Assembly: GCA_027490995.1 (NCBI GenBank)
Contig: JAIXWY010000013.1
Coordinates: forward strand, 124,001-188,000
Source: Opitutaceae bacterium
GTDB lineage: Bacteria > Verrucomicrobiota > Verrucomicrobiia > Opitutales > Opitutaceae
Length of the DNA: 64,000 nucleotides
Direction: 5' to 3'
Part shown: one piece after another, positions 4,300 to 30,273 of the stretch
Numbering within the stretch: the stretch's first letter is position 1
Layout: every line of letters begins with the position of its first letter
Made by a program: the position numbers and the translations under genes
Notes under the pieces: model-generated
Told to the model about the DNA's origin: nothing
Seen by the model: only the letters and a program-made list of their open reading frames with translations
The model's database searches: none

Positions 4300-5595
4300 A
4301 TGGAAAACCGAGTTGCCCTCTGCCGCCGCCAGGTGTGTGGTGAGGAGATGATAGGCGTGTTCTTCTCGTTGCTAACCGGCACGTTGCGGCTGAGCGGTGC
4401 GATCATGGCGCTGTTGTTGATCACGACGGGCTCGACCCTGCGGGCTTTCGATCTGGCGGCTCAGCCGGACAAGGTCATCCAGCGCGTCGCCTTCGGATCG
4501 TGCAACAACTCAACCCAGCCCGCGCCCGTGTGGGACGCAGTTGCCAAGGTCGATCCGCAGGTGTGGCTGTGGTTGGGTGACACCGTGTACGCCGATGATC
4601 CTCGTCCGACGGGCGATACGCTCGCCGAGCGAACACGCGTCGTGCTCGACCGGCTCCCGGGGCTGTACGCACGCCAGCGCGCACTACCGGCCTACCAGAG
4701 CCTGATGAACCGCGCTCTCATCATGGGTACGTGGGACGACCATGATTACGGCCTGAATGACATGGGGGCCGATTTTCCGGGTCGCGTCGAGGCTCAGCAG
4801 CACTTCTTCGATTTTTACGGTGAGCCGAAGGAGAGTCCACGCCGCACGCGCCCCGGAGTCTACAGCTCGATCGTCCTGGGCCCTCCCGGTAAGCGACTTC
4901 AAGTCGTGATCCTCGACACGCGGTCATTTCGCTCGCCGCTTGAGAATGGAAATTTCCCGCGGGAGCAGCGGGTGGAGGGACGCCCTGGTCCGTATCGACC
5001 GAGTAGCGATGAAACCACCACGTTGCTTGGACCCGATCAGTGGGCGTGGCTTGAGCGTACGCTGCAGCAGCCTGCCGAGGTGCGGATTATTGCGTCTTCA
5101 ATCCAAGTCATTGCTGATGATCATCGCTTTGAGAAGTGGGGCAATTTTCCCCACGAGCGGCGTCGGTTGCTGCGCTTGATCCACGATCAACGCATTGGCG
5201 GCGTCATTCTGGTCTCCGGTGATCGTCACACTGGCGAATTGAGCTGCCTCGATCCGCTGCGCGAGCCGGAGGGTGATGCCATTGATCCAGGTTACCCGCT
5301 ATTTGATCTCACGTCCTCGGCTTTGAATCGCTCTGCGCCGATCGTCGCAAACCCGCCGGCGGCAAATGCTGGGCGTCGTCCGGTGGTCTTCAGCCACGAG
5401 ATCAATCGCCATCGGATCGGCTCGCGATTCGGCTACAACCACTTCGGGCTAATCGAGATCGACTGGAGCGCCACCGGCGGGGGTGAGGTCACGCTTTCGC
5501 TGCGCGCCGAAACCGGGGACGAGGTGCTACGGCAGCGCGTGGCCGTCGCTGCTCTCCAGCCGGATTCTGGCGCGCGTCCCGGGGGCGGGAACTAA
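4300..5595 (+). CDS. PhoD-like alkaline phosphatase/phosphodiesterase
   Basis: Up to 431 residues. Family motifs are easy to see: RVAFGSCNNS, LGDTVYADD, TWDDHDYGLND and VSGDRHTGEL, which supply the metallophosphatase-fold ligands of PhoD-like enzymes. A hydrophobic export segment lies at about residues 17-50. The start is uncertain: ATG 4300, ATG 4348 and GTG 4357 are all possible, and the only good Shine-Dalgarno (GAGGAG at 4342-4347) fits GTG 4357 best by spacing. It lies 22 bases after the other phosphatase and converges on the epimerase gene, so the two phosphatases are likely one phosphate-scavenging unit (inference). Confidence 0.85.
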   Translation: MENRVALCRRQVCGEEMIGVFFSLLTGTLRLSGAIMALLLITTGSTLRAFDLAAQPDKVIQRVAFGSCNNSTQPAPVWDAVAKVDPQVWLWLGDTVYADDPRPTGDTLAERTRVVLDRLPGLYARQRALPAYQSLMNRALIMGTWDDHDYGLNDMGADFPGRVEAQQHFFDFYGEPKESPRRTRPGVYSSIVLGPPGKRLQVVILDTRSFRSPLENGNFPREQRVEGRPGPYRPSSDETTTLLGPDQWAWLERTLQQPAEVRIIASSIQVIADDHRFEKWGNFPHERRRLLRLIHDQRIGGVILVSGDRHTGELSCLDPLREPEGDAIDPGYPLFDLTSSALNRSAPIVANPPAANAGRRPVVFSHEINRHRIGSRFGYNHFGLIEIDWSATGGGEVTLSLRAETGDEVLRQRVAVAALQPDSGARPGGGN

Positions 5596-5627
5596 GACGC
5601 CCATCCGATCAGGCGCCTCGGGGAGGG

Positions 5628-6569
5628 CTACCGAGGTGTCGTTGGAGCGCTGCGGTCGCTCGCGCGTGCCGCCGCCACCAACTCTGAGAGCGCCGCGTCC
5701 AGTGAGGTGGTGGGACGAAATCCGGCCGCCAGCAGCCGTGTGACATCGGCCCGCGAGTGGCGTACGTCGCCGGCGCGCGTGGGTGCATGCTGGATCGTTG
5801 AGCGCGAGCCGGTCGCACGGATGATGCGCCGCGCGAGTTCAAGGATCGTGATCTCTTCGCCGTAACCGACGTTGTACACGCCGGCCACGCTGGGCGTTGT
5901 CGCCGCGAAGAGATTCGCGGCCACCACGTCGTGCACGGAGACAAAGTCACGGGTCTGGCCGCCGTCGCCAAAGATCGTGATCGGCTCGTTCGCTAGCGCC
6001 TGCCGCAGGAAGATCGGTACAGCCGCTGCGTACGCGCTATTCGGGTCCTGACGCGGTCCGAAGACGTTGAAATAGCGCAGGCTCACGGTCTCCAGCCCCG
6101 TCGTCTCCGTCCAGAGTCGGCAGTAGTACTCGCCGTCCAGCTTTGTGATCGCATACGGGCTGCGCGGATCCGGGGTGAGGTCCTCGCGTTTCGGCGACTC
6201 GAGGCGCGCGCCGTAGACCGCGGCCGAACTACTGAAGCATACGCGCCGCACCTTTGCCTCCGCGGCAGCGGCCAGGAGATTGAGGAGGCCGGTCACGTTG
6301 CATTCGACGCATGCCTGCGGTCGTTGCATCGATTCGGGCACGCTCACCATTGCGGCGAGGTGGAAAACGACCTCCACGTTACGCACCGCGCGCGCGACGA
6401 CGGCGCGATCCGTGATCGAACCTTCGATCAGTTCGACGCTTAGTCCGGCGAGGTTTTCTCGGCGTCCGGTGCTGAGATCATCGAGGACGCGGACTGCGTG
6501 CTCGCCCTGCAGGCGGGCGGCGAGGTGACTGCCGATGAAACCGGCGCCTCCGGTGATGAGAACGTTCAT
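5628..6569 (-). CDS. NAD-dependent epimerase/dehydratase, UDP-hexose 4-epimerase type (extended SDR)
   Basis: A 313-residue extended short-chain dehydrogenase. GGAGFIGSH at residues 7-15 binds NAD, SSSAAVYG supplies the catalytic Ser region, and YAITK the Tyr-Lys pair. RYFNVFGPRQDP and the late GDGGQTRDFVSVHDV are typical of UDP-glucose or UDP-GlcNAc 4-epimerases such as GalE/WbpP-like enzymes. Its ATG overlaps the TGA of the upstream kinase gene (ATGA), so the two are translationally coupled. With a sugar 1-kinase beside it, the pair would phosphorylate a hexosamine or hexose and interconvert the nucleotide sugar. Exact substrate is not set by the sequence. Confidence 0.88.
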   Translation of the reverse strand: MNVLITGGAGFIGSHLAARLQGEHAVRVLDDLSTGRRENLAGLSVELIEGSITDRAVVARAVRNVEVVFHLAAMVSVPESMQRPQACVECNVTGLLNLLAAAAEAKVRRVCFSSSAAVYGARLESPKREDLTPDPRSPYAITKLDGEYYCRLWTETTGLETVSLRYFNVFGPRQDPNSAYAAAVPIFLRQALANEPITIFGDGGQTRDFVSVHDVVAANLFAATTPSVAGVYNVGYGEEITILELARRIIRATGSRSTIQHAPTRAGDVRHSRADVTRLLAAGFRPTTSLDAALSELVAAARASDRSAPTTPR

Positions 6570-7708
6570 GGTTGGGCGGCAAGGCGGTCGACCGTGCGCT
6601 GAAACGAATCCTGCTGGAGCTCAAGGCTGCGCACGAGCGCGAATTGGTTCCGCGCACGGTCGAGATTGTGCCCAGGGCGCTTAGTCTTGAAGTACACGTC
6701 GCCCTCAATGAAGTCCGTTAGGAAGCGTAGACCGATTTCGAAGGTGATGAGGCGGCCAGCAAAGGCGAGCTCCGCGATCTCGGCGCGGCGCAGGAAGGAG
6801 CGTGCGGTCGCAAGGTAGCCTTCGGTGAGTGCCGTGAAGATCTCTGGGCGAGCGACGACCTGCGCGAGGTTCGTCGCGTCCTCTGCCGCCGCGTTGGTGG
6901 CCGAGCGCACCAGGTCACCGAAGTCGTACAGCGCGAGTCCGGGCATCACCGTGTCGAGATCGATCACGCAGACTGCGCGACCAGTCGCATCGTCGAGCAT
7001 CACGTTGTTGAGCTTGGTGTCATTGTGGGTGGTGCGTTCCGGGAGGTCGCCGCGGGCGTGTAAATCGAGCAGGCGGTCGACCATCGCTTCGCGTGCGTTC
7101 GCGAACGCGATCTCGTCCCGGACGAGGGCGACGCGTCCAGCGGGATCGCGGCGCACGAGTTCGAGAAAGGTCTCGAAGCGGCGGCGGGTGTGATGGAACG
7201 CGGGGATGGTCTCGTGGAGCCGGGGTGCGGGGAGGTCCGCAAGAAGGCCTTGAAAGCGGCCGAACGCGGCCGCTGCCTCGCGAGCCTGCTCCGGGCGTTC
7301 GAGGAGGTCGTAGGAGCGCGCGCCCTCGATGAAGTCGTAGCAGCGCCAAGCTGCGCCGGTGTCGTCGTGCGTGAATGCGGCACCGTCCCGGTCGGGGATC
7401 AGGGTGAGCACGCGCTCGGTGGCCTGAGCCGAGAGGCGGGAGCGGGCATGCCGCGTGACGCGCGCAATGTTATCCATCAGCGCGGGAACATCTCGGAAGA
7501 TGCGACTATTGATCCGCTGCAGGAGGTAGCGCCTGGGGTTTCCTTGCGCGTTCCGGCAAGTGACGGCGAAGGTGTCATTGATGTGCCCCGATCCGTGGGG
7601 GACCGCGTGCATCGCCGGAGCGTCGCTTTCGAAGCGAGCAAAAACGCGGAGCGCCTGCGCTGCACGTTCGTCGGGCGCCTGGCCGGCCGGCGGGGAGAGA
7701 GACTGCAT
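6566..7708 (-). CDS. Sugar kinase of the aminoglycoside-phosphotransferase fold (N-acetylhexosamine 1-kinase-like)
   Basis: The protein is 380 residues. The catalytic loop THNDTKLNNVM (HxD-type with downstream Asn) and the metal-binding VIDLDTVMPGLALYDFGD motif mark an APH/choline-kinase fold enzyme. The N-terminal GSGHINDTF and LLQRIN segments match the nucleotide-binding region of NahK, the N-acetylhexosamine 1-kinase of the Bifidobacterium lacto-N-biose pathway. That kinase acts next to a UDP-hexose 4-epimerase, as found here directly downstream with an overlapping start. A GlcNAc/GalNAc 1-kinase role is therefore a reasonable inference; other sugars are possible. Confidence 0.8.
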   Translation of the reverse strand: MQSLSPPAGQAPDERAAQALRVFARFESDAPAMHAVPHGSGHINDTFAVTCRNAQGNPRRYLLQRINSRIFRDVPALMDNIARVTRHARSRLSAQATERVLTLIPDRDGAAFTHDDTGAAWRCYDFIEGARSYDLLERPEQAREAAAAFGRFQGLLADLPAPRLHETIPAFHHTRRRFETFLELVRRDPAGRVALVRDEIAFANAREAMVDRLLDLHARGDLPERTTHNDTKLNNVMLDDATGRAVCVIDLDTVMPGLALYDFGDLVRSATNAAAEDATNLAQVVARPEIFTALTEGYLATARSFLRRAEIAELAFAGRLITFEIGLRFLTDFIEGDVYFKTKRPGHNLDRARNQFALVRSLELQQDSFQRTVDRLAAQP

Positions 7709-8253
7709 GGGGAAGTAGTGAGCAAATCAGGGTGCCGAGGTGGAGCAATCCCGGAGACAGGCGAGCGGGGCGGCGTCCGCTCTACCGCGGCTGCGGCTGC
7801 GAGAATTCGTCGGTTGGGGTGCGGCTGATCGATGGCGAGGCCTGAGTCAAGGGGCGCGGGACGAGCTGGTCTTCGCGCAAATGCACCGGAGCAAGAGAGT
7901 CAGAGCGCAAGAGCTTTGGGCTCTCCGTGAACCGAGGCTGAAGCGAACCGGGGGGAGTCAGGTGGCTCGCCGAGACCTGATTTTCCGACGAGACTCCAGA
8001 GTGCGTTGCGCCGATCGACGTTGATGACGTGTCTTCGGCGCGCACCGGCCGCTGCAATGCCGGGAATTGAACGTCGCCCTCGTTGCCGGGTTTTTCACCG
8101 GAGGGGACTAGAGGTTTGACGGTCGTCGGGCGCCCGGGGATTCTACTGGTCGGCGAGGGCGGCCGGTGTTCCTCGCATGAGATTGCGCCTCGCTTGGATT
8201 TGTTTCGTCGTTCGCTTTCGTCCGGTTCGTTTCACCCCTCACGCTTACCCCGC
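7709..8253. other. Intergenic region without a recognisable gene
   Basis: These 545 bases separate the divergent kinase and peptidase genes and must hold both promoters. Two short open frames (plus strand 7740-8024, minus strand 7782-8057) have Arg- or Ser/Pro-rich translations with no recognisable motif. I see no tRNA, hairpin with T-run or repeat. Confidence 0.5.
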
Positions 8254-22101: not shown

Positions 22102-22147
22102 TGGCTGCCCGGGTAGGGATCGAACCTACGACCAAGTGATTAACAGT
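22102..22147. repeat. attL: 46-bp duplicate of the tRNA-Asn 3' half
   Basis: The 46 bases are identical to 30199-30244, the anticodon-loop-to-CCA part of the tRNA-Asn gene. Only the 3' half is present and no tRNA 5' half adjoins it, so this is the displaced end of the target gene and marks the left boundary of the integrated element. The integrase gene starts 82 bases inward. Confidence 0.93.
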
Positions 22148-22229
22148 TTCTCTGTTGCCATTTCGCATGATTTCTCAATTATTCCGTAACGAGCGATAAA
22201 AACGACTGGTTACGATAGAAATACGAGAG

Positions 22230-23588
22230 ATGATCACGAAGACAAGCGAAGCGGAAAACGGCATTGAGAATCGGAAAAACCGGACAAAAACCGGACAAAA
22301 CAGTCCGAAGACCTCGGCGGACTTCTGGAAAAAGAAGGTCAAGGCCCGCCCCGGTCTGCGCAATGGGCTGCTGTATGTCCGCCTCTTTGAAGGGGGGAGG
22401 GAGGCCTGGGTGTGCTGCGACTCTTCAAACCGAGCGCAGGCCGCTGTCACCGCCCGCGACCGTTGGCTGCGAATGAAGGCGATTGGATTGCCCGCCTTAC
22501 TAGCCGAGCTTTCACCCGATCCTTTGCCGGAACGGTGTGGCACGGTAGGCGAGTTGATCGAGGCCGCCAGCAAGGTCGCCCAGGTCCGCCCGGCAACGCT
22601 GCTGGATTATGGCAAGCGCCTGCGTCAGGTCGCCGCAGATGTCGGCGAGATCCGCCGCCCCGAGAAGATCACTTCGCGCACCGATCCCGCGACGATGGAG
22701 TGGAGGAGGAGGGTTGATGCGCTCCCGCTGGACATACTCACCGCCAGCGCCGTCGCAGAGTGGAGGGCTAAACGCATTGCGGCCGCCGGTGCTGATCCCA
22801 TCGCCCGCAAGTCCGCCGAGGTGTCCGCCGACAGCGCCATCCGCATGGCGCGCTCCCTGTTCTCGCCTGACTTGCTCACCTTGGGACTGGCGAAAGCCGT
22901 TCGCCTGCCCGACCCGCTGCCTTTCGCGGGGCTCAGGTGGGGCGAGACGACCAAACGTTTTGAATGTCGGGTGAATCCCGCGCTTCTGTTCGTGAACGCC
23001 CGCCGCGATCTTGAGAGCGAACATCCGCAATCCTTCCGGGCTCTTGCCCTTTGCCTCTTGGCTGGTCTGCGTCGCGTGGAGGCGGACCTCCTAACGTGGG
23101 ATCAGGTTGATCTTGCCGCTGGCACAATCACAGTCCGCCGCACGCCGTACATGGAGCCGAAGAGCAGGGAGGCTTGCCGTGTCATTAATCTGGATACAAC
23201 TGCCGTCGCAATTCTGCGCGAGGCAAAGTCGGACGCCCCCGATCCGGTCTTCGTGCTCAAGGGGGCTCCCTTCAAACCTCGGACCTCCGCCACACCAGTT
23301 TATCGTGCTGACGCTGCGCCGTTCCGCACTTGGGAGCGACTGATCGCGTGGCTGGCGACCAAGGGAATTGATGGACCGAAGCCGATTCACGACCTGCGCA
23401 AGCTGGCGGGGTCGATGGTTCACCTCGCATACGGTATCGAGCAGGCCCGGGATTTCCTTGGGCACCAGAGCGTGCTCACAACGAGCGCCAGCTACCTTTC
23501 CCAAACGCCGAAGGTGATGGTTTCGATTCCGCTGCTCGCCGATGAAGTCTCCAAAGCTCAGGCGGATCGGATGGAGGCTTCCCGATGA
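22230..23588 (+). CDS. int: Tyrosine recombinase (integrase) of the tRNA-Asn element
   Basis: The protein is 452 residues. The C-terminal catalytic domain contains the expected residues: Arg281 in LAGLRRVEADLLTW, a candidate beta-hairpin Lys312, His387 and Arg390 in IHDLRKL, His412 in LGHQS and the nucleophile Tyr422 in SASYLSQTP. The N-terminal arm-binding and core-binding regions are less conserved. It lies just inside attL, reading into the element, as in most tRNA-targeting islands. The first 30 residues are rich in Asn, Lys and Thr because that DNA carries two ACCGGACAA repeats that may be Int or Xis binding sites; a later start is therefore possible. Confidence 0.93.
   Translation: MITKTSEAENGIENRKNRTKTGQNSPKTSADFWKKKVKARPGLRNGLLYVRLFEGGREAWVCCDSSNRAQAAVTARDRWLRMKAIGLPALLAELSPDPLPERCGTVGELIEAASKVAQVRPATLLDYGKRLRQVAADVGEIRRPEKITSRTDPATMEWRRRVDALPLDILTASAVAEWRAKRIAAAGADPIARKSAEVSADSAIRMARSLFSPDLLTLGLAKAVRLPDPLPFAGLRWGETTKRFECRVNPALLFVNARRDLESEHPQSFRALALCLLAGLRRVEADLLTWDQVDLAAGTITVRRTPYMEPKSREACRVINLDTTAVAILREAKSDAPDPVFVLKGAPFKPRTSATPVYRADAAPFRTWERLIAWLATKGIDGPKPIHDLRKLAGSMVHLAYGIEQARDFLGHQSVLTTSASYLSQTPKVMVSIPLLADEVSKAQADRMEASR
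22279..22298. promoter_or_regulatory. Paired ACCGGACAA repeats, candidate recombinase arm sites (left)
   Basis: Copies lie at 22279-22287 and 22290-22298, within the first codons of int and about 130-150 bases inside attL. They match the right-end pair in sequence, spacing and orientation. Overlap with the int 5' end would also allow autoregulation. Confidence 0.45.
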
Positions 23589-23662
23589 GCGTCTTTACTA
23601 GCGTGGACTGCGCGGCGAATATGACCCGCCGCGCCGCAGGCAGGTAAGTAGCGTCAGGCTGG

Positions 23663-24178
23663 TCAGAAGCGCAGCCGCATGCGCTTCTTCAGCAACTCAA
23701 TGCCGCCGAGGCCAAACGCCTTTTGCCAGACTTGCGGACGCACCAGCGTGTACTTCTTCAGCAACTCAAGGTGACGGGTGCGCGAACACAGATTGCTGTA
23801 GAATACGCGGCGGGTGTAGGTCGTATCCAAGAAAAGCCTGTGTACCTTCCCGCTGCGATAGTGGCGTGGATTGGGCGGAACAAAAAGCAGGACGTCCGCA
23901 ATCTCGTGTAGACGTACCCGCCCCCGCCGGTCCTCCGAGATCAGGCGCGCCTGCGCGTAACGAATCACCGTCCGGCGGGAGATCTTCAGGAGCCGCGCCG
24001 CCTCTGATTTGGTTACCCGCGGAATCTTCTCAGGGTTTGGCCCGACCGGATCCCACTCCCACGAGACGGCAGTATCCAACCCCGCACGGCTCTTGGAGCC
24101 GATCACGAACGCCGGTCGTCTACCCCTCGGCAGGGGCAACCCATTAGACTCAGGTTTTTTCCTCTGCACCTGTGACAC
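23663..24178 (-). CDS. Helix-turn-helix DNA-binding protein of the element (leftward regulator candidate)
   Basis: A 171-residue protein with a MerR/excisionase-like HTH at about residues 54-97: VTKSEAARLLKISRRTVIRYAQARLI followed by the wing-like RVRLHEIADVLLF. The remainder is basic and not recognised. The start is a GTG at 24178, with no ATG nearby in frame. It is transcribed away from the rightward operon with only 24 bases between the two start codons, and converges on int. That position is where phage satellites keep a master regulator, so a repressor or switch role is a reasonable but unproven inference. Confidence 0.7.
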   Translation of the reverse strand: MSQVQRKKPESNGLPLPRGRRPAFVIGSKSRAGLDTAVSWEWDPVGPNPEKIPRVTKSEAARLLKISRRTVIRYAQARLISEDRRGRVRLHEIADVLLFVPPNPRHYRSGKVHRLFLDTTYTRRVFYSNLCSRTRHLELLKKYTLVRPQVWQKAFGLGGIELLKKRMRLRF

Positions 24179-24202
24179 CTATTTAACACTTCGACCCTAT
24201 AC

Positions 24203-24427
24203 GTGACCACTTCAAAACAAAATGAATCGAATACTTCCGGGGACTCCACGCTCTCACCGCGTGAAGTTGCCCGTTCGCTAGGGTACAGAAGCCGGGCGGC
24301 TTTCTGGAGTTTTGTCCACCGCGAGGCCGTGCCGTTTGTGCGCCTTTCGGCGCGCAAGATCAGGTTCCCAGTCGACGGGTTCCGGCGCTGGATCGCCAGT
24401 CGAACCACGAATCAGGGGGGCCGTTGA
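24203..24427 (+). CDS. AlpA/excisionase-like small HTH protein
   Basis: The protein is 74 residues, starting at GTG 24203. SPREVARSLGYRSRAAFWSFVHREAVPFVRLSARKIRFPVDGFRRWIASR reads as a winged HTH of the AlpA/MerR-like excisionase type: helix-turn-helix, then a strand pair with basic residues. It opens the rightward operon of the element; the next gene starts two bases after its stop. In islands of this kind AlpA-like proteins activate int or act in excision (family knowledge). No biochemical residue can confirm which. Confidence 0.7.
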   Translation: MTTSKQNESNTSGDSTLSPREVARSLGYRSRAAFWSFVHREAVPFVRLSARKIRFPVDGFRRWIASRTTNQGGR

Positions 24428-24428
24428 G

Positions 24429-24650
24429 ATGCGCCCGACTCCCCCTGCCGCCCACACCGCGTCCATCGAAGACCGGCTCCTTCACTTCCGGGACGTCAAT
24501 ACGCTCATCGGAAGCCGCTGCAAGACCAGTCACGCCGCCCGCAATCTTGCGCGCCGGGGGCAAATCGTCGCGGTGTACCTCAACCAGAGGGTCGTAAGGT
24601 ACACCCAGACCAGCGTGCTCAAGCTCGCCCGCGGAGAAACCACCCGATGA
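24429..24650 (+). CDS. Second small DNA-binding protein of the element operon
   Basis: A 73-residue protein from ATG 24429. LLHFRDVNTLIGSRCKTSHAARNLARRGQIVAVYLNQRVVRYTQTSVLKLARGE has the pattern of an excisionase/AlpA-type winged HTH, with a basic end. It starts two bases after the previous gene and its end overlaps the primase-like gene by four bases (ATGA), so the three are one transcript. Two consecutive excisionase-like proteins suggest that one is the excision factor and one a transcriptional regulator. Function is inferred from context only. Confidence 0.65.
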   Translation: MRPTPPAAHTASIEDRLLHFRDVNTLIGSRCKTSHAARNLARRGQIVAVYLNQRVVRYTQTSVLKLARGETTR

Positions 24651-25723
24651 CCTTCGTTCGCAAACGGGTTCGCTGGACCGCGCCGACTGCCGCCGAGGTT
24701 GCCGAACTGCTCCGCTGGATTCCACCCCGGCCTGCCTACGAAGAATGGGTCCGCATCATTGCCGCCGTTGGCAGTGTGCTAGACGAAACCGAGGCCGCTG
24801 TCGTCCTGGCCGCCTGGAGTCCCGAAGACCGTCCGGGAGAATACCGCGCCAAGCTCCGCGCCCGGCTGGCGAGCGTGAACTTCGGGACGCTGGTTCATCT
24901 GGCGAAAGCGAACGGCTATACACCTGCCTCCCGGCCCGCCCCGCGACCCATTGCGACGCCCTCGCCCCGGAGGCCTGCCGTCACCCTGCAATCCTGGCCC
25001 GAGGCCGTCTCCGAACGCTACCGGGAAGGACGCGACTACCTCATGGCCAGCCCTGCCACCCTCGAGAAGATCGACGCTTGGCGAGGCTGGCCGGCGGGCA
25101 CCGCTGCAACGTTGGCGGAGGACTCGATCCTTTCCTCCCCGATCACGAACGGCAGCACCGCCCGCGGACTCGCCTTCGCTGTCCACGCCCCGGTGGTCGA
25201 TGACCTCGGCTTCCCGGGAGTCCGGGAGATCGGCTTCCACTGCCGACACCGCCCCGCGGCTGGAGAGCGTGCGCAGTGGACTTTCCACCCAAACGCCCGT
25301 GAGGACTGCACCGGAATCCCTGCGCTGCCATTCGTCATCGGTTGCAGCTTCGTTGCCTTCGCCCGGCACGTGATCGTTGCGGAGGGGCAGTGGGATGCCA
25401 TCACCCTAGCCGCGGCCGGCGGATGGCTGGCGAATGACGCCTCATGGCCGGATAACGTATCCCTCTTTGGACTACGTGGAGCCGGCAACTGGCGCCCACT
25501 GCTCGACCACTGGCACCCGCATTTCACCAAAGGTGCCATCGTCGTCTTGTTCCCACAGGCAGACGAGGCCGGACAGGCATGGACGAAGCCCAACGGCTTT
25601 GCCGACGCCCTCCGCGCCCTGCACCACCCGGTCAAGGTCGTGCGTCTGCCGTTCCCCGACCTCAACGACGCCCACCGCGCCCAACCCATCACCCCAGCCG
25701 ACCTCGCCGCCTGGCTCTCCTGA
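24647..25723 (+). CDS. Primase-like replication protein (PriCT-2 plus Toprim-like)
   Basis: This 358-residue protein starts with a PriCT-2-like helical region at about 12-75 (LLRWIPPRPAYEEWVRIIAAVGS, then AAWSPEDRPGEY). The second half is Toprim-like: HVIVAEGQWDAITLAAAGG with Glu246 and Asp250, then GAIVVLFPQADEAGQAW, where the usual DxD motif is reduced to Q-A-D (304-306). It overlaps the preceding small gene by four bases and the RecA-fold gene by three (TGATG). Such pairs of a primase part and a helicase part initiate replication of plasmids and phage satellites. The weak Toprim acidic motif makes primase activity uncertain. Confidence 0.75.
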   Translation: MTFVRKRVRWTAPTAAEVAELLRWIPPRPAYEEWVRIIAAVGSVLDETEAAVVLAAWSPEDRPGEYRAKLRARLASVNFGTLVHLAKANGYTPASRPAPRPIATPSPRRPAVTLQSWPEAVSERYREGRDYLMASPATLEKIDAWRGWPAGTAATLAEDSILSSPITNGSTARGLAFAVHAPVVDDLGFPGVREIGFHCRHRPAAGERAQWTFHPNAREDCTGIPALPFVIGCSFVAFARHVIVAEGQWDAITLAAAGGWLANDASWPDNVSLFGLRGAGNWRPLLDHWHPHFTKGAIVVLFPQADEAGQAWTKPNGFADALRALHHPVKVVRLPFPDLNDAHRAQPITPADLAAWLS

Positions 25724-26799
25724 TGACCCTTCCCGCGCACTACCTCAGCACCCCCGTTGAAACACTCGCCCCGGAGCCCGTCCCGGTCCCGCTCATTGAG
25801 CGTGTCCTCGCGAGGGAGATCGACCCGGCAAACCCGCCTGCCCCGTCCGAGCCCCGTTACTACGTCGCCGGACGCATCACCGGCACCGCTGGCAACCTCG
25901 GACAGATTTCCTCCAAGGCGAAGACCGGGAAAACCGCCGTCATCGGAGCCCACATCGCCGCCACCGTGAAGGCCGAGGGACTAGGCGACCAGGAGGCCGA
26001 CACCCTCGGCATAACCGCCGCACCGCCCAAAGGCCGCGCCGTCGTCGTCATCGACACCGAGCAGGCCCCGGAGGACGCCTGCGCCCTGATAACGCGATCC
26101 CTCCGCAGGCTTGGACTCGGACCCAAGGCCCGACCGCCTTGGCTCCGCGGATTCTCCCTCGCCGGCTTTGGAGCACGGGATCTGTCCCAAGCCCTGCCGC
26201 AGCTACTCGACCGACTTGCTGCCGAGCACAGCGGGATTCACTCGGTCCTTATCGACGGAGGCGCGGATTTCGCCGTCAACGTCAACGACCCGGAGGAGGC
26301 GGGCGCCCTCATCGCCGGATGGCACGCCCTGGCAATCAAGCACGCCTTCCACCTGCTCACCGTCATTCACTCCAACGAAGGCGCCGCCGATGACATCGCC
26401 CGCGGATGGCTTGGGAAGCAGTTGCGGCGGAAGGCGGAGAGCAACCTCCAACTCCGGAAGGACGGTGAGGTCATTACCCTTTTCTCCGACACCGGACAGC
26501 GCCGCGCCCCGATTCCGCAGGCGGAGGGACCGACGTTCACCTGGGATGTGGAGCGCGGGATGCACGTCTCGACCAAGCCGATCGGGAGCGCACGTCTTGA
26601 GGCCGAGGTTGCAGACTTGCGCGAACTCGCCGCCGAGGTCTTCGACCAAGGACAGGTAAAGGGGTGGACCGAGCTTCAGGAGGCCATCATGAAGGCCCGC
26701 GGCATATCGAAGAATACGGCCGACAAACGCATCAAGCGGATGAAGGTACTTGGGGTTATTCGTCATGCCGGAAGGGCGCAGTGGATGAATGCTTTATGA
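25723..26799 (+). CDS. RepA/AAA_25-like RecA-fold ATPase (helicase-like replication protein)
   Basis: The protein is 358 residues from the ATG at 25723, which overlaps the upstream stop. A P-loop is present as SKAKTGKT at 64-71; the first Gly of the Walker A consensus is Ser, a tolerated change in AAA_25/RepA-type proteins (compare KPKVGKS). VVVIDTEQ near 107-114 is the Walker B-like strand, and HSVLIDGGADF and LLTVIHSNEGA fit later RecA-fold motifs. Residues from about 300 form a C-terminal winged-helix-like segment (GISKNTADKRIKRMKVLGVI). It is probably the hexameric helicase or loader that acts with the primase-like protein at the adjacent repeat region. Confidence 0.82.
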   Translation: MTLPAHYLSTPVETLAPEPVPVPLIERVLAREIDPANPPAPSEPRYYVAGRITGTAGNLGQISSKAKTGKTAVIGAHIAATVKAEGLGDQEADTLGITAAPPKGRAVVVIDTEQAPEDACALITRSLRRLGLGPKARPPWLRGFSLAGFGARDLSQALPQLLDRLAAEHSGIHSVLIDGGADFAVNVNDPEEAGALIAGWHALAIKHAFHLLTVIHSNEGAADDIARGWLGKQLRRKAESNLQLRKDGEVITLFSDTGQRRAPIPQAEGPTFTWDVERGMHVSTKPIGSARLEAEVADLRELAAEVFDQGQVKGWTELQEAIMKARGISKNTADKRIKRMKVLGVIRHAGRAQWMNAL

Positions 26800-27058
26800 T
26801 ACGTTCACCCCATCACCCCAACCAACCCCAATTCGTACCCCACGTGGGGCATAGTTACCCCATCACCCCAACCCCCTATATATAGGGGTGGGGCATTGGG
26901 GTGAAGAACTGGGGCAATGCTGCCAACCACCGGAAGCCGTCCGGTAGGGGGGGCCAAGAAGACTCCTAGCAACTAGGAAGCCGTGGGTTAGAAGCACCTG
27001 CTAACCGTTCTCAGTTTGGGTTCAACTAACAAAAGGTCCGCATTTTCAACCAGCAACC
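26800..27058. repeat. Nested palindromes and direct repeats, candidate replication origin
   Basis: ACCCCATCACCCCAACC occurs twice in direct orientation, at 26807-26823 and 26857-26873. CCCCACGTGGGG (26838-26849) and CCCCTATATATAGGGG (26873-26888) are perfect palindromes. TCACCCCAA (26863-26871) and TTGGGGTGA (26896-26904) form an inverted pair around the TATATATA core. Two further short hairpins follow (TCCTAG/CTAGGA at 26964-26978, GGTTAG/CTAACC at 26986-27006). Lying just after the primase/helicase genes, this looks like iterons with an A/T-rich melting core; a transcription terminator or operator cluster is the alternative. Confidence 0.6.
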
Positions 27059-27571
27059 ATGACTAAACAAAACCAGCAGAAACACGTCGCCCTCGCCGCC
27101 CAACTCGACATCGACCCGCGCACCCTCCGCCGGTGGCGCCAGCGTGACGACTTTCCCCACGGCGCCGATGCCGGCACGGTCAAGGCATGGGCGGATAAGC
27201 ACGGGCTCCACCGCTCGTATACGAAGGGCGAAGGTGGCCGGCTAGCCGACCTCAAGGCCGAGCTTCTTCGGGAGCAGATCGCTTCTGCGCGGACGAAGAA
27301 CGCCCAATTGCGCCGACAATTCATCCACCGCAAGACCTTCGAGGACGGCATTGCGCTGATCGGTCAGAAGTGGGACTTGCTCTTGCGGCTCAAGTTGGAG
27401 GTGGAGCTAGGCCCGCGCGTGGCCGGGAAGAGCGCAGCCGAGGCTAACGTTGAAGGTAGCCGCATCCTCGACGAGATCCGCGAGGTGGTGAACGCTGGTT
27501 TGTCGAAGTTTGAAACGGACTTGCTGCAGCCTGACCCGCAGAACGGACCAGGCGCGCCAGACGCGACGTAG
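27059..27571 (+). CDS. Terminase small subunit-like (Nu1/TerS-type) HTH protein
   Basis: A 170-residue protein. The N-terminal winged HTH (VALAAQLDIDPRTLRRWRQRDDFP, then GTVKAWADKHGL) is followed by a long helix, ADLKAELLREQIASARTKNAQLRRQFI, and the segment LRLKLEVELGPRVAG. This HTH-plus-coiled-coil layout is that of Nu1-like phage terminase small subunits, which recognise packaging sites in DNA. No large terminase subunit or structural gene is nearby. A lone TerS in a small island is a hallmark of phage satellites that redirect a helper phage's packaging. It could alternatively be a generic DNA-binding regulator. Confidence 0.6.
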   Translation: MTKQNQQKHVALAAQLDIDPRTLRRWRQRDDFPHGADAGTVKAWADKHGLHRSYTKGEGGRLADLKAELLREQIASARTKNAQLRRQFIHRKTFEDGIALIGQKWDLLLRLKLEVELGPRVAGKSAAEANVEGSRILDEIREVVNAGLSKFETDLLQPDPQNGPGAPDAT

Positions 27572-27709
27572 GGCGCGACCCTAGCCCCGAAACAGCGGAC
27601 GCACTTGGATGTCGGTCTATGCTTGGTGGGCAACCAATACAGCGACTGGTCCTCCTGATCGTGACGCGCCTCCTCTGCGGTGGGCCGGCTGTAGGGCTCT
27701 GAGCGTGTC

Positions 27710-29617
27710 TTATTGGATCTCGTACAACTCGACGAGTCCGACTCCGGTTGAGTTGTTCACGCCGCTGACTTGAGCGGTATAAGATCCTGGCTGGAGTTGC
27801 AGCAGAAGAGCAGCGTCACGCGAGCCCACCGGGAATGAGAAAGCGCCCGCCTGTAGGAAGGCTGCGCTGAGGCCCGAGCCACCGCCCCAGTCGTCGTTCT
27901 CCGCCAGCACTGCGGAATCGCGAAAAACCTGCAGACGGGGGTTAGCGATTACGTTCCCAACACCGAACTGCGCCAAACTTGGGCCAGCCGCCCGGATCAG
28001 CACGGTCTTGGGAGAATTTCCCGAGATCACGAATCCGACGATGAGAATGTTGTCGCCAACACCAACAAAGTTGCGGGCGGACAAATTCAGGAAGCGAGTT
28101 CCTGCTCCGCCCAAGTCAGCGTCGTAAGCCTCCAAGAGAACGACGCCAGGGCTACCGTCAGATGCAATCTGCGCGGTGTAGGCTCCCGAAGCCAACTCAA
28201 CCAACAGCGCCGAGTCACGCGACGTCGCCGAGAGCGGAAAAGCTCCAACCCTAGAGAAAGCGGTGACCAGCCCACTGTCGCCGCCCCAGTCGTCGTTCTG
28301 AATGGTGAGGTTTCCTTCTCTGAAGAGCCTTAAATGTGGGTTCAGTAGTGCGCCGTTGACGCCAAACTGTCCTAAGCTGGGGCCAACTCCCCGGAGCAGC
28401 GTTTGTTTCGTTCCCTGGCCTGCTATGACCAATCCTACGATGAGCGTTCTGTCTCCATCACCGGCCGTACTTCTTACAGATAGGTTTGAAATTGAAGAGG
28501 GTCTCACTGTCAGCACAGCCGGGTTGCTGGAAACGGAGCCGAATCCATTTGATGCGACCAACGTGTAGCTGCCGGCATCGCTTTCCCGCACCCGAGGCAA
28601 CGAGAAACTCGAACCCGTCGCCCCCGCGATTGCGGCACCGTTCCGGAACCATTGGAGGGCGGTGGCCCTATCGACCGATGCCGTGAATGTCACTGCCTGT
28701 CCTGCGTTGACCGTCTGGCTGACGGGTTGAGAAAGGATACTCGGCGGAGTTGTCGGAACCAGTACGTTAAGCCGCGCATCGCTGCTTGTGACCGTTCCGG
28801 CACTGTTCCCAATGACGACGCTATATGCCCCAGCGCTAGCGGTCTGGACGCTGAGAATGGTCAGGGTTGAAGTGGTAGCGCCGCTGATTGGAACGCCGTC
28901 TCTTCGCCACTGATAGCTAAGGGGGCCTGGTCCATCTGCGGTTGCCGTAAAGGTAGCTGTGCCTCCTATATACACATCGGTCGCCAGCGGCTGAGTAATC
29001 ATCACAGGGAACTGAACGACGGCCACAGCATCCAAGAGTAGATCGACCGAGACCGTGGCGGAAGATGTGTCGGAAAACTGAATCGTGCTGACACTCGAAA
29101 CCGCTGTGAAGATGAACTCCTGGGAAACGCCGAAGCCGTTACTGGCGGGAATCGAAACGGATTGCTCCAAAGTTATGCCGCCTTGCGACTTTACCGAAGC
29201 CACAACGCTGACATTTCCGGAGCCCGTCCCGGGCCCGGCTTTACCAGCGGTAAAGCTGACTCTATAGCGCCGACCGACAATGGTGTCGAACGTTTGGGCA
29301 ATCCAGTTTCCCGGGAGTGAGTCGCCGGCGTTGAAGACCACGAACTGGCTACCTTCCTTCGGTGCGGCGGTATGCCCTCGGATTACGTTGATCCCGCGAC
29401 CGCTGCCTCCGACGACCCAACCCAGAAGCGCGTCGTTGCCCGGGCCTACTCCTATGTCCGAGCCGTTCGGAAGCACCGGACTCTCAAAACCTCCGTTTAT
29501 AAAAGGGGCCGCAGCTAAGTTTCCGGCTGCGACTAAGAGTGTGGCGGCGAAGACCGAGGATCTGAAGACCGCAAAAACCAAGCGCGGTCTGATTTGAAGC
29601 GGCACCGGAATTATCAT
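27710..29617 (-). CDS. Secreted multidomain protein: DUF642-like, two Ig-like and two Opitutaceae-type repeat domains (island cargo)
   Basis: The protein is 635 residues. An N-terminal signal (VFAATLLVAAGNLAAA) is followed by a jelly-roll DUF642/galactose-binding-like region (APFINGGFESP onward, to about 205), two Ig-like domains (about 208-290 and 292-372, with SYQWRRDG and ALQWFRNG cores) and two homologous domains of about 128 residues, each with LIVGxVIxG, LxRxxGPSLxQFGV, NPxLxxFR and NDDWGG. The last domain type is common in secreted Opitutus proteins. It is on the opposite strand to the replication operon and is the only obvious cargo. Roles in surface binding or adhesion are inferred; there is no catalytic motif. 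Confidence 0.75.
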   Translation of the reverse strand: MIIPVPLQIRPRLVFAVFRSSVFAATLLVAAGNLAAAPFINGGFESPVLPNGSDIGVGPGNDALLGWVVGGSGRGINVIRGHTAAPKEGSQFVVFNAGDSLPGNWIAQTFDTIVGRRYRVSFTAGKAGPGTGSGNVSVVASVKSQGGITLEQSVSIPASNGFGVSQEFIFTAVSSVSTIQFSDTSSATVSVDLLLDAVAVVQFPVMITQPLATDVYIGGTATFTATADGPGPLSYQWRRDGVPISGATTSTLTILSVQTASAGAYSVVIGNSAGTVTSSDARLNVLVPTTPPSILSQPVSQTVNAGQAVTFTASVDRATALQWFRNGAAIAGATGSSFSLPRVRESDAGSYTLVASNGFGSVSSNPAVLTVRPSSISNLSVRSTAGDGDRTLIVGLVIAGQGTKQTLLRGVGPSLGQFGVNGALLNPHLRLFREGNLTIQNDDWGGDSGLVTAFSRVGAFPLSATSRDSALLVELASGAYTAQIASDGSPGVVLLEAYDADLGGAGTRFLNLSARNFVGVGDNILIVGFVISGNSPKTVLIRAAGPSLAQFGVGNVIANPRLQVFRDSAVLAENDDWGGGSGLSAAFLQAGAFSFPVGSRDAALLLQLQPGSYTAQVSGVNNSTGVGLVELYEIQ

Positions 29618-30198
29618 TTTGAAGCGAGGGGGCGGCTAAACCCTTTTAGGCGCGAGATGAAGCGAAGGGGTTACCGGCGAAACTACAAGACAATGTATTC
29701 AAATCTCCAATCCACAAACCAAAGGTCCGAGTTCCGCTTCTCTGCCGAAATCAACTGGCCGTTAACACGAAACGCTCTTGTGTGAACGGTGCGGTGCATG
29801 GACCGCCTGGTCTCGACCCCGTGGCGTGCGCCACCATCTCACGAGGTGCCGTAGGTTTCTGCGGGACTGTGTAGGGCGGGTTTCTGAAAGACCCGGGATC
29901 GCTGATTCGTCTCGCTAAGGCGCGTCCTAGAGCGATCTTCGCAAGCGCGGACTCCCGTGGCCAGTCGGCGCCGAGAGACACGATGCAACCGCGGTTCTTG
30001 TGCTTTGCTAAGCGTCGATGGGCGAGGGGTAGACCGCTGGCGAGGAAGGCACCGTGCAATGAGAGCAGTCTCGTCGCGACCGGTGGATTGAGGATGGCGG
30101 GCAAAAGCCGAGCGGCAGCGGGGTGAAAATACCGGACAATTACCGGACAATCACTTTTCATTCCCACGCGCCTCGTTACGCAATCCATTCACTGTGAA
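29618..30198. other. Right end of the element, no convincing gene, with candidate arm-type sites
   Basis: A minus-strand open frame (29751-30188) has no recognisable motif. Two ACCGGACAA repeats at 30131-30139 and 30142-30150, 11 bases apart, mirror the pair at 22279-22298 near attL. CTCGTTACG at 30172-30180 is the reverse complement of CGTAACGAG at 22185-22193. CCATTCACTGTGAATGG at 30186-30202 is a near-palindrome abutting attR. Confidence 0.5.
30131..30150. promoter_or_regulatory. Paired ACCGGACAA repeats, candidate recombinase arm sites (right)
   Basis: Two copies of ACCGGACAA with an 11-base period lie about 50-70 bases inside attR. The same pair with the same period and orientation is found at 22279-22298 near attL. 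Matching repeats near both ends of an integrated element suggest binding sites for Int arm-binding domains or an excision factor. Confidence 0.45.
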
Positions 30199-30244
30199 TG
30201 GCTGCCCGGGTAGGGATCGAACCTACGACCAAGTGATTAACAGT
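30199..30244. repeat. attR: 46-bp direct repeat within tRNA-Asn
   Basis: Identical to 22102-22147. It covers the anticodon loop to CCA, the usual crossover segment for tyrosine integrases at tRNA genes. The distance between the two copies gives an element of 8,097 bp. Confidence 0.93.
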
Positions 30245-30273
30245 CACCTGCTCTGCCACTGAGCTACCGGGCA
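30199..30273 (-). tRNA. tRNA-Asn (GTT anticodon), integration target
   Basis: A 75-base cloverleaf including an encoded CCA: acceptor TGCCCGG/CCGGGCA, D stem GCTC/GAGC, anticodon stem GGTGA/TCACT around loop CTGTTAA (anticodon GTT), variable TGGTC, and T stem GTAGG/CCTAC around TTCGATC. The 3' 46 bases are repeated at 22102-22147, so the element restored the gene on insertion and the intact tRNA lies at its right end. Confidence 0.97.

Follow-up and report, generated by a model that had tools for sequence, protein, structure and literature searches.

A probable phage satellite with PICI-like gene order at a tRNA-Asn gene of an Opitutaceae bacterium

A 64-kb stretch of Opitutaceae DNA (the window) contains an 8.1-kb island at a tRNA-Asn gene that, as judged from its genes, is very probably a phage satellite with PICI-like logic, a member of an Opitutaceae lineage of such elements. 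This interpretation, first proposed in a sequence-only reading of the DNA, draws on a terminase small subunit (TerS) of phage type, on the occurrence of TerS as an orphan at tRNA ends, and on a gene order and an origin that match those of phage-inducible chromosomal islands (PICIs). Most of the phage satellites described so far belong to Proteobacteria and Firmicutes, with a few from Actinobacteria. The sequence-only reading had noted no described example in the phylum Verrucomicrobiota, and in a limited novelty check of the open-access literature we likewise found none. If the interpretation is correct, the satellite strategy, in which an element supplies its own integrase, origin and TerS and borrows the particle, reaches a deep-branching phylum. 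The use of this strategy with apparently different replication proteins would point to repeated evolution.

Table 1. Positions of the genes, end sites and candidate origin of the island within the 64-kb window
Feature	Position	Strand	Evidence or description
attL core	22102..22147		46 bp, identical to the 3' part of tRNA-Asn
Tyrosine integrase, 452 aa	22230..23588	+	PF00589, 1.6e-7; PHROG integrase, 7e-20
Left arm-type sites	22278..22298	+	AACCGGACAA twice, 11 bp apart, within the 5' end of int
HTH regulator, 171 aa	23663..24178	-	HTH_17, 3.9e-5
AlpA/excisionase-like small HTH protein A (hthA)	24203..24427	+	HTH_17, 3e-4; PHROG 66, 8.5e-5
Small conserved protein B	24429..24650	+	40-64% identical copies near int in relatives
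Primase-like protein	24647..25723	+	PriCT_2 N-terminus, 0.0047 (weak); TOPRIM-like C-terminus
AAA_25 RecA-fold replication protein	25723..26799	+	AAA_25, 2.8e-8; C-terminal winged helix
Candidate origin	26806..26916		CCCCA iterons, central palindrome, inverted TGGGG iterons
Candidate origin palindrome	26873-26888		CCCCTATATATAGGGG
Terminase small subunit TerS, 170 aa	27059..27571	+	PHROG 57, 5.2e-5, residues 11-150
Cargo: exported Ig-domain protein, 635 aa	27710..29617	-	Ig_3, 3.5e-21; choice-of-anchor C, 7e-18
Right arm-type sites	30130..30150	+	TACCGGACAA twice, 11 bp apart
attR core	30199..30244		Within intact tRNA-Asn
tRNA-Asn(gtt)	30199-30273	minus	Intact

The island is bounded by perfect 46-bp direct repeats (Table 1). 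Repeats of this length had been placed earlier at the 3' half of tRNA-Asn, and the two copies were indeed identical, with an intact tRNA-Asn(gtt) gene present. The same core lies directly upstream of the integrase gene in the nearest integrase relatives. Each end of the island also carries a pair of short sites; the word ACCGGACA starts at 22279 and 22290 on the left and at 30131 and 30142 on the right, and these are four of its five copies in the 64-kb window. Four related islands (G015, G147, L129 and L034) bear other paired words at the equivalent positions of both ends, for example TGGCGGAG and AGGGGACA, and within each island the words are identical or nearly identical between the two ends. 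These paired words look like integrase arm sites. Because the sites match at both ends, the two ends belong to one element that includes the cargo gene, and their concentration there places the boundaries well beyond chance.

The host genome consists of 3.47 Mb in 15 contigs. The flank of the tRNA-Asn gene was present in each of the nine further genomes of the genus (in G002 the match covered only the part to the right of the core), tRNA-Asn exists as a single copy in these genomes, and no match to island DNA was found at the site in any of the nine. A second copy of the 46-bp core was observed only in G003, on a separate contig together with a related island. The search for an empty attB that the sequence-only reading had suggested was thus successful in part: island-free tRNA-Asn genes were found within the genus, but their left flank is different, so that the insertion point could not be recovered as a flush junction. 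The comparison supports a recent insertion of the island.

Alignment of the integrase indicated that its catalytic residues are all retained (R281, H387-R390, H412 and Y422), which together with the Pfam match substantiates its earlier identification as a tyrosine integrase. The opposite-strand HTH regulator was also recovered as an HTH_17 protein, and its gene diverges from the replication operon across a 24-bp gap. Two AlpA/excisionase-like proteins had been proposed. One of them, hthA, matched both HTH_17 and PHROG 66, an excisionase/regulator family, whereas the second, protein B, matched no library family. No small protein is conserved more widely among the related islands than protein B, which has copies beside this integrase in L035, L036, L129, L190, L191 and L298-L303 and is probably an excisionase or activator. 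The cargo was correctly described as a single gene, which specifies a secreted Ig-domain protein with an N-terminus that resembles a signal peptide by eye. PHROG tail and Hoc matches of this protein stem from its Ig domains. Family searches with the island proteins identified no capsid, portal, tail, TerL, lysis, relaxase or conjugation gene, in agreement with the earlier statement that capsid, tail, TerL and lysis genes were missing.

The integrase family was present in 40 of 200 Opitutaceae genomes; islands at tRNA-Asn are frequent in these bacteria and differ in their cargo. Many islands moved by this integrase family lack terS, and among them are some with capsid and tail genes or with restriction genes. 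Such islands could therefore be mobile without the help of phages, and because the integrase serves such a mixed group of islands, the satellite interpretation rests on the replication module and TerS. One tRNA-Asn island of this integrase family (L295) contains a gene for the R subunit of a type I restriction enzyme (5021-8068), which is likely to be anti-phage cargo.

The primase-like and RecA-fold proteins of the sequence-only reading were found in the overlapping order described, the former with a weak PriCT_2 match and the latter as a member of AAA_25; the stop codon of the primase gene overlaps the AAA_25 start codon (ATGA). The aligned primase homologue of island L129 bears a CHC2 zinc finger (5.8e-7), and the one useful result of profile searches against PDB was a weak match between the primase set and a DnaG zinc finger. 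In a structural model of the AAA_25 protein the C-terminal winged helix was predicted with a pLDDT of about 80, the remainder of the model being poor. The AAA_25 protein was present in 18 of the 200 Opitutaceae genomes, and searches of IMG/VR with it and with the island primase yielded no relatives. In L190, L301 and L302, primase and AAA_25 are fused or replaced by one protein of 684-871 aa beside protein B.

A candidate origin follows the AAA_25 gene. The 64-kb window contains 27 ACCCCA/TGGGGT words, seven of which fall within 26807-26902; no other 130-bp stretch has more than two. This segment had been called palindrome-rich; it does have the layout of an origin, but it is better described by ordered iterons and an AT palindrome. 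In most related islands, too, the AAA_25 gene is followed by this layout; the repeat word changes from island to island (CCCCG, CCCGCA, CCCTCC, CCTAC, CTCCG, GTCCGC or CTGCCG), but the TATATA core is constant. The palindrome with this core had 14 matches in 635 kb of loci and none in shuffled sequence; each of the 14 lies downstream of an AAA_25 gene at a distance of at most 300 nt, and 14 of the 17 islands are represented. A constant palindrome together with a differing iteron word was observed in L043, L187, L190-L193, L195-L197, L199 and L201-L203. The island-specific words suggest that the initiator of each island is matched to its own origin, and the iterons may be read by the modelled winged helix of the AAA_25 protein. 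Differences of this kind could act as an incompatibility or specificity system under which several satellites can coexist.

The island protein described earlier as TerS/Nu1-like did not turn out to belong to an unrelated family. In addition to its PHROG 57 match it has 248 relatives in IMG/VR, from uncultivated phages and up to 74% identical. The neighborhood of TerS was examined in 80 fetched IMG/VR loci (L049-L128), and a GpA-like TerL gene was located downstream of TerS in all 80, usually with a portal gene next; the TerL of L050 matched PF05876 (3.4e-25). As TerL is found downstream in every fetched phage locus, we conclude that the family is a real small terminase subunit. An HNH-like motif occurs immediately upstream of TerS in 23 of the 37 phage loci with enough upstream DNA, and the HNH-like gene often overlaps terS in this phage group. 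No match to the TerS was found among the isolated phages of INPHARED, and a fold search with a TerS model (pLDDT 76) returned only a weak MerR-type HTH match.

In a tree of the family, the window TerS grouped with phages L049 and L050 inside the phage clade (88/99), and eight other host TerS proteins formed a separate supported clade (98/97), which implies at least two acquisitions. The dN/dS values of 0.18-0.20 against L049 and L050 indicate that TerS has been kept as a protein under purifying selection. The C-terminal part is almost invariant across the family, and the N-terminal HTH differs between groups. For the window TerS, this HTH, the DNA-binding half of the protein, is 76-77% identical to its counterparts in L049 and L050, suggesting that packaging-site recognition has been kept. 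The DNA encoding the C-terminal part is 75-87% identical to that of many phages. The search for a pac or cos site identified none: the synonymous sites of terS were without clear constraint, and no non-coding DNA was common to island and phages. A packaging site hidden within terS was also considered and rejected; its synonymous sites are only mildly conserved, and a mosaic origin together with protein constraint accounts for the identity with phages.

Members of the TerS family were identified in 19 of the 200 Opitutaceae genomes, and only one host locus, an ordinary prophage (L188), has a neighboring TerL gene. At 11 host loci the 3' end of the TerS gene lies 97-314 nt from a tRNA gene and points at it, the tRNAs being tRNA-Gly, -Val, -Met, -Asp, -Arg and -Asn; this is the position expected for the right end of such islands. 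A fragment from G030 encodes a TerS 70% identical to that of the window, 115 nt from tRNA-Asn and accompanied by matching arm sites. The sequence-only reading had called for a search for the same gene order at tRNA-Asn in other Opitutaceae. The block of int, small HTH gene, primase, AAA_25 and origin does recur in independent islands, and with TerS downstream it was found at tRNA-Cys (L043) and tRNA-Ala (L187). L043 is 10.3 kb long with 33-bp repeats and contains integrase, primase, AAA_25 and TerS genes and the origin, together with the gene found ahead of terS in phages; L187 contains AAA_25, the origin and a distant TerS. A 5-kb island at tRNA-Gly (L183) has an integrase and TerS. This gene, a small one that stands before terS in some phages, lies beside TerS both in L043 (8219-8668; 36%, E 1e-30) and in L185 (1828-2229; 33%), and its retention in both suggests that TerS may need, or travel with, a partner.

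C-terminal pieces of TerS were also observed, in L184 (9801-10034), L189 (8465-8674), L204 (4351-4626) and L205 (464-739), at distances of 97-183 nt from tRNA-Asp and tRNA-Arg genes. They represent either what is left of island right ends or short proteins that inhibit the packaging of phages. That such pieces beside tRNAs could be dominant inhibitors, that the C-terminal half of TerS is kept while the HTH half varies, and that many related islands have an integrase and an origin but no TerS would all be expected if the island of the window were a self-replicating integrative element that dispenses with phage particles and uses TerS as a DNA-binding regulator or, in defence, as a packaging inhibitor. 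We consider this explanation unlikely, because the window TerS is full length with a DNA-binding half close to that of L049 and L050, L043 has retained the neighboring phage gene as well, and the island has no relaxase or conjugation gene.

The candidate helpers of the satellite are probably non-integrating phages, not yet isolated, that resemble L049-L128. The host genome contains no GpA TerL, the L050-type TerL had only 23-26% matches in the 200 Opitutaceae genomes (in three of them), and no tyrosine integrase was found in 15 phage records of 18-38 kb, an absence that weighs little since the records may be fragments. These results argue for helpers that do not integrate. The link to the host comes from the distribution of the TerS family, which among named cellular genomes occurs only in Opitutales (10 loci), and L049-L128, a large uncultivated phage group, probably infect this order.

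The scarcity of such TerL genes also bears on the possibility that the island is a decayed prophage, i.e. the integrase-replication end and one packaging gene left over from a temperate tRNA-Asn phage. Two tRNA-Asn islands with the same integrase lend this some credit: the 15-kb island of G015 (L219 26-15147) carries genes for a capsid protein, a tape measure and a tail fibre, and the 16-kb island of G147 (L221/L222) carries genes for a head protease and a tape measure. However, neither of these islands has a recognised TerL or portal gene, and prophages of the 200 Opitutaceae genomes contain no such TerL beyond 26% identity. Moreover, all genes of the window island are open and overlapping, both att arms are intact, TerS is under purifying selection, and orphan TerS genes recur at many tRNAs of the family. 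We therefore regard decay from a prophage as improbable, marginally more so than the particle-free element. The G015-type capsid was not found in IMG/VR, and the G015 and G147 islands are possibly satellites with head and tail parts of their own, or trimmed prophages. A chance assembly of genes in an ordinary tRNA genomic island can be set aside as extremely improbable, for although varied-cargo tRNA-Asn islands and their integrase are common in the family, the order from int to origin recurs independently and is followed by TerS in L043 and L187.

Interpreted as a satellite, the island resembles the PICIs most closely. PICIs have the order int, regulator, alpA, pri, rep, ori, terS and accessory genes, and their origin, placed immediately 3' of the replication gene, has an AT-rich region flanked by two sets of iterons (PMC6092414). 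The gene order claimed in the sequence-only reading agrees with this published order, and the origin organisation agrees as well (PMC6092414). Like PICIs of the Gram-negative type and SaPIs, the island is about 8 kb in size, has its origin 3' of rep, carries its own TerS (optional in PICIs) and has no TerL or structural genes. It differs in its replication protein, which has a RecA fold of the AAA_25 family and a winged helix. PICI Pri-Rep is distantly related to P4 alpha; Pfam searches of the island proteins gave AAA_25 and a weak PriCT_2 match and no P4-alpha-type helicase family. The host phylum, the att site in tRNA-Asn and the seemingly non-integrating candidate helpers are further differences. 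PICI att sites are not used by temperate prophages of the species; tRNA-Asn in relatives of this host also receives elements with some capsid and tail genes and no recognised TerL or portal gene. The island would work like a PICI, but likeness in order is not membership, and we do not class it as a PICI because its replication protein is of a different family and its induction, packaging and interference with a helper are predictions from sequence. Capsid-forming PICIs find a parallel in G015 and G147, which bring their own virion genes to the same tRNA; in contrast, the window island has no virion genes, and G015 and G147 have tape-measure genes and no recognised terminase or portal. PICMIs of Vibrionaceae, which sit next to fis, are satellites of virulent phages (PMC10803314), the kind of helper also proposed for the window island. 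They share with it a small size, an integrase, an AlpA-like regulator, a primase and the lack of a recognised capsid-remodelling gene. The window island differs in its TerS and in having different replication genes; the text of the PICMI paper mentions no terminase (PMC10803314).

On balance, we lean towards a broader view in which the Opitutaceae satellites form a lineage of their own apart from PICIs. Its members would combine a tRNA integrase and an AAA_25 replicon, with a constant palindrome and island-specific iterons, with a TerS captured at least twice from the uncultivated, non-integrating phages that they parasitise, and some would have genes for a capsid, a tape measure and a tail fibre while lacking terminase and portal genes.

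In the mechanism that we propose for the window island, infection by a helper would lead the small HTH proteins to switch the island on, and the integrase and excisionase would then excise it. Replication from the iteron origin would produce concatemers, and the island TerS would join the large terminase of the helper and thereby direct island DNA into the particles of the helper. As the island is 8.1 kb long and has no recognised capsid-size gene, packaging would probably place multimers of it into heads of full size. The particles would deliver it to a new cell for re-integration at tRNA-Asn, where the Ig-domain cargo may serve as a host-benefit gene. The TerS family and the origin signature could be used as markers to find helpers in Verrucomicrobiota, from which very few phages have been isolated, and the mechanism, if true, provides a testable route of gene transfer in this phylum. 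Among contigs with transduction patterns, a transductomics study found a 3.5-fold over-representation of Verrucomicrobia contigs (PMC7667829).
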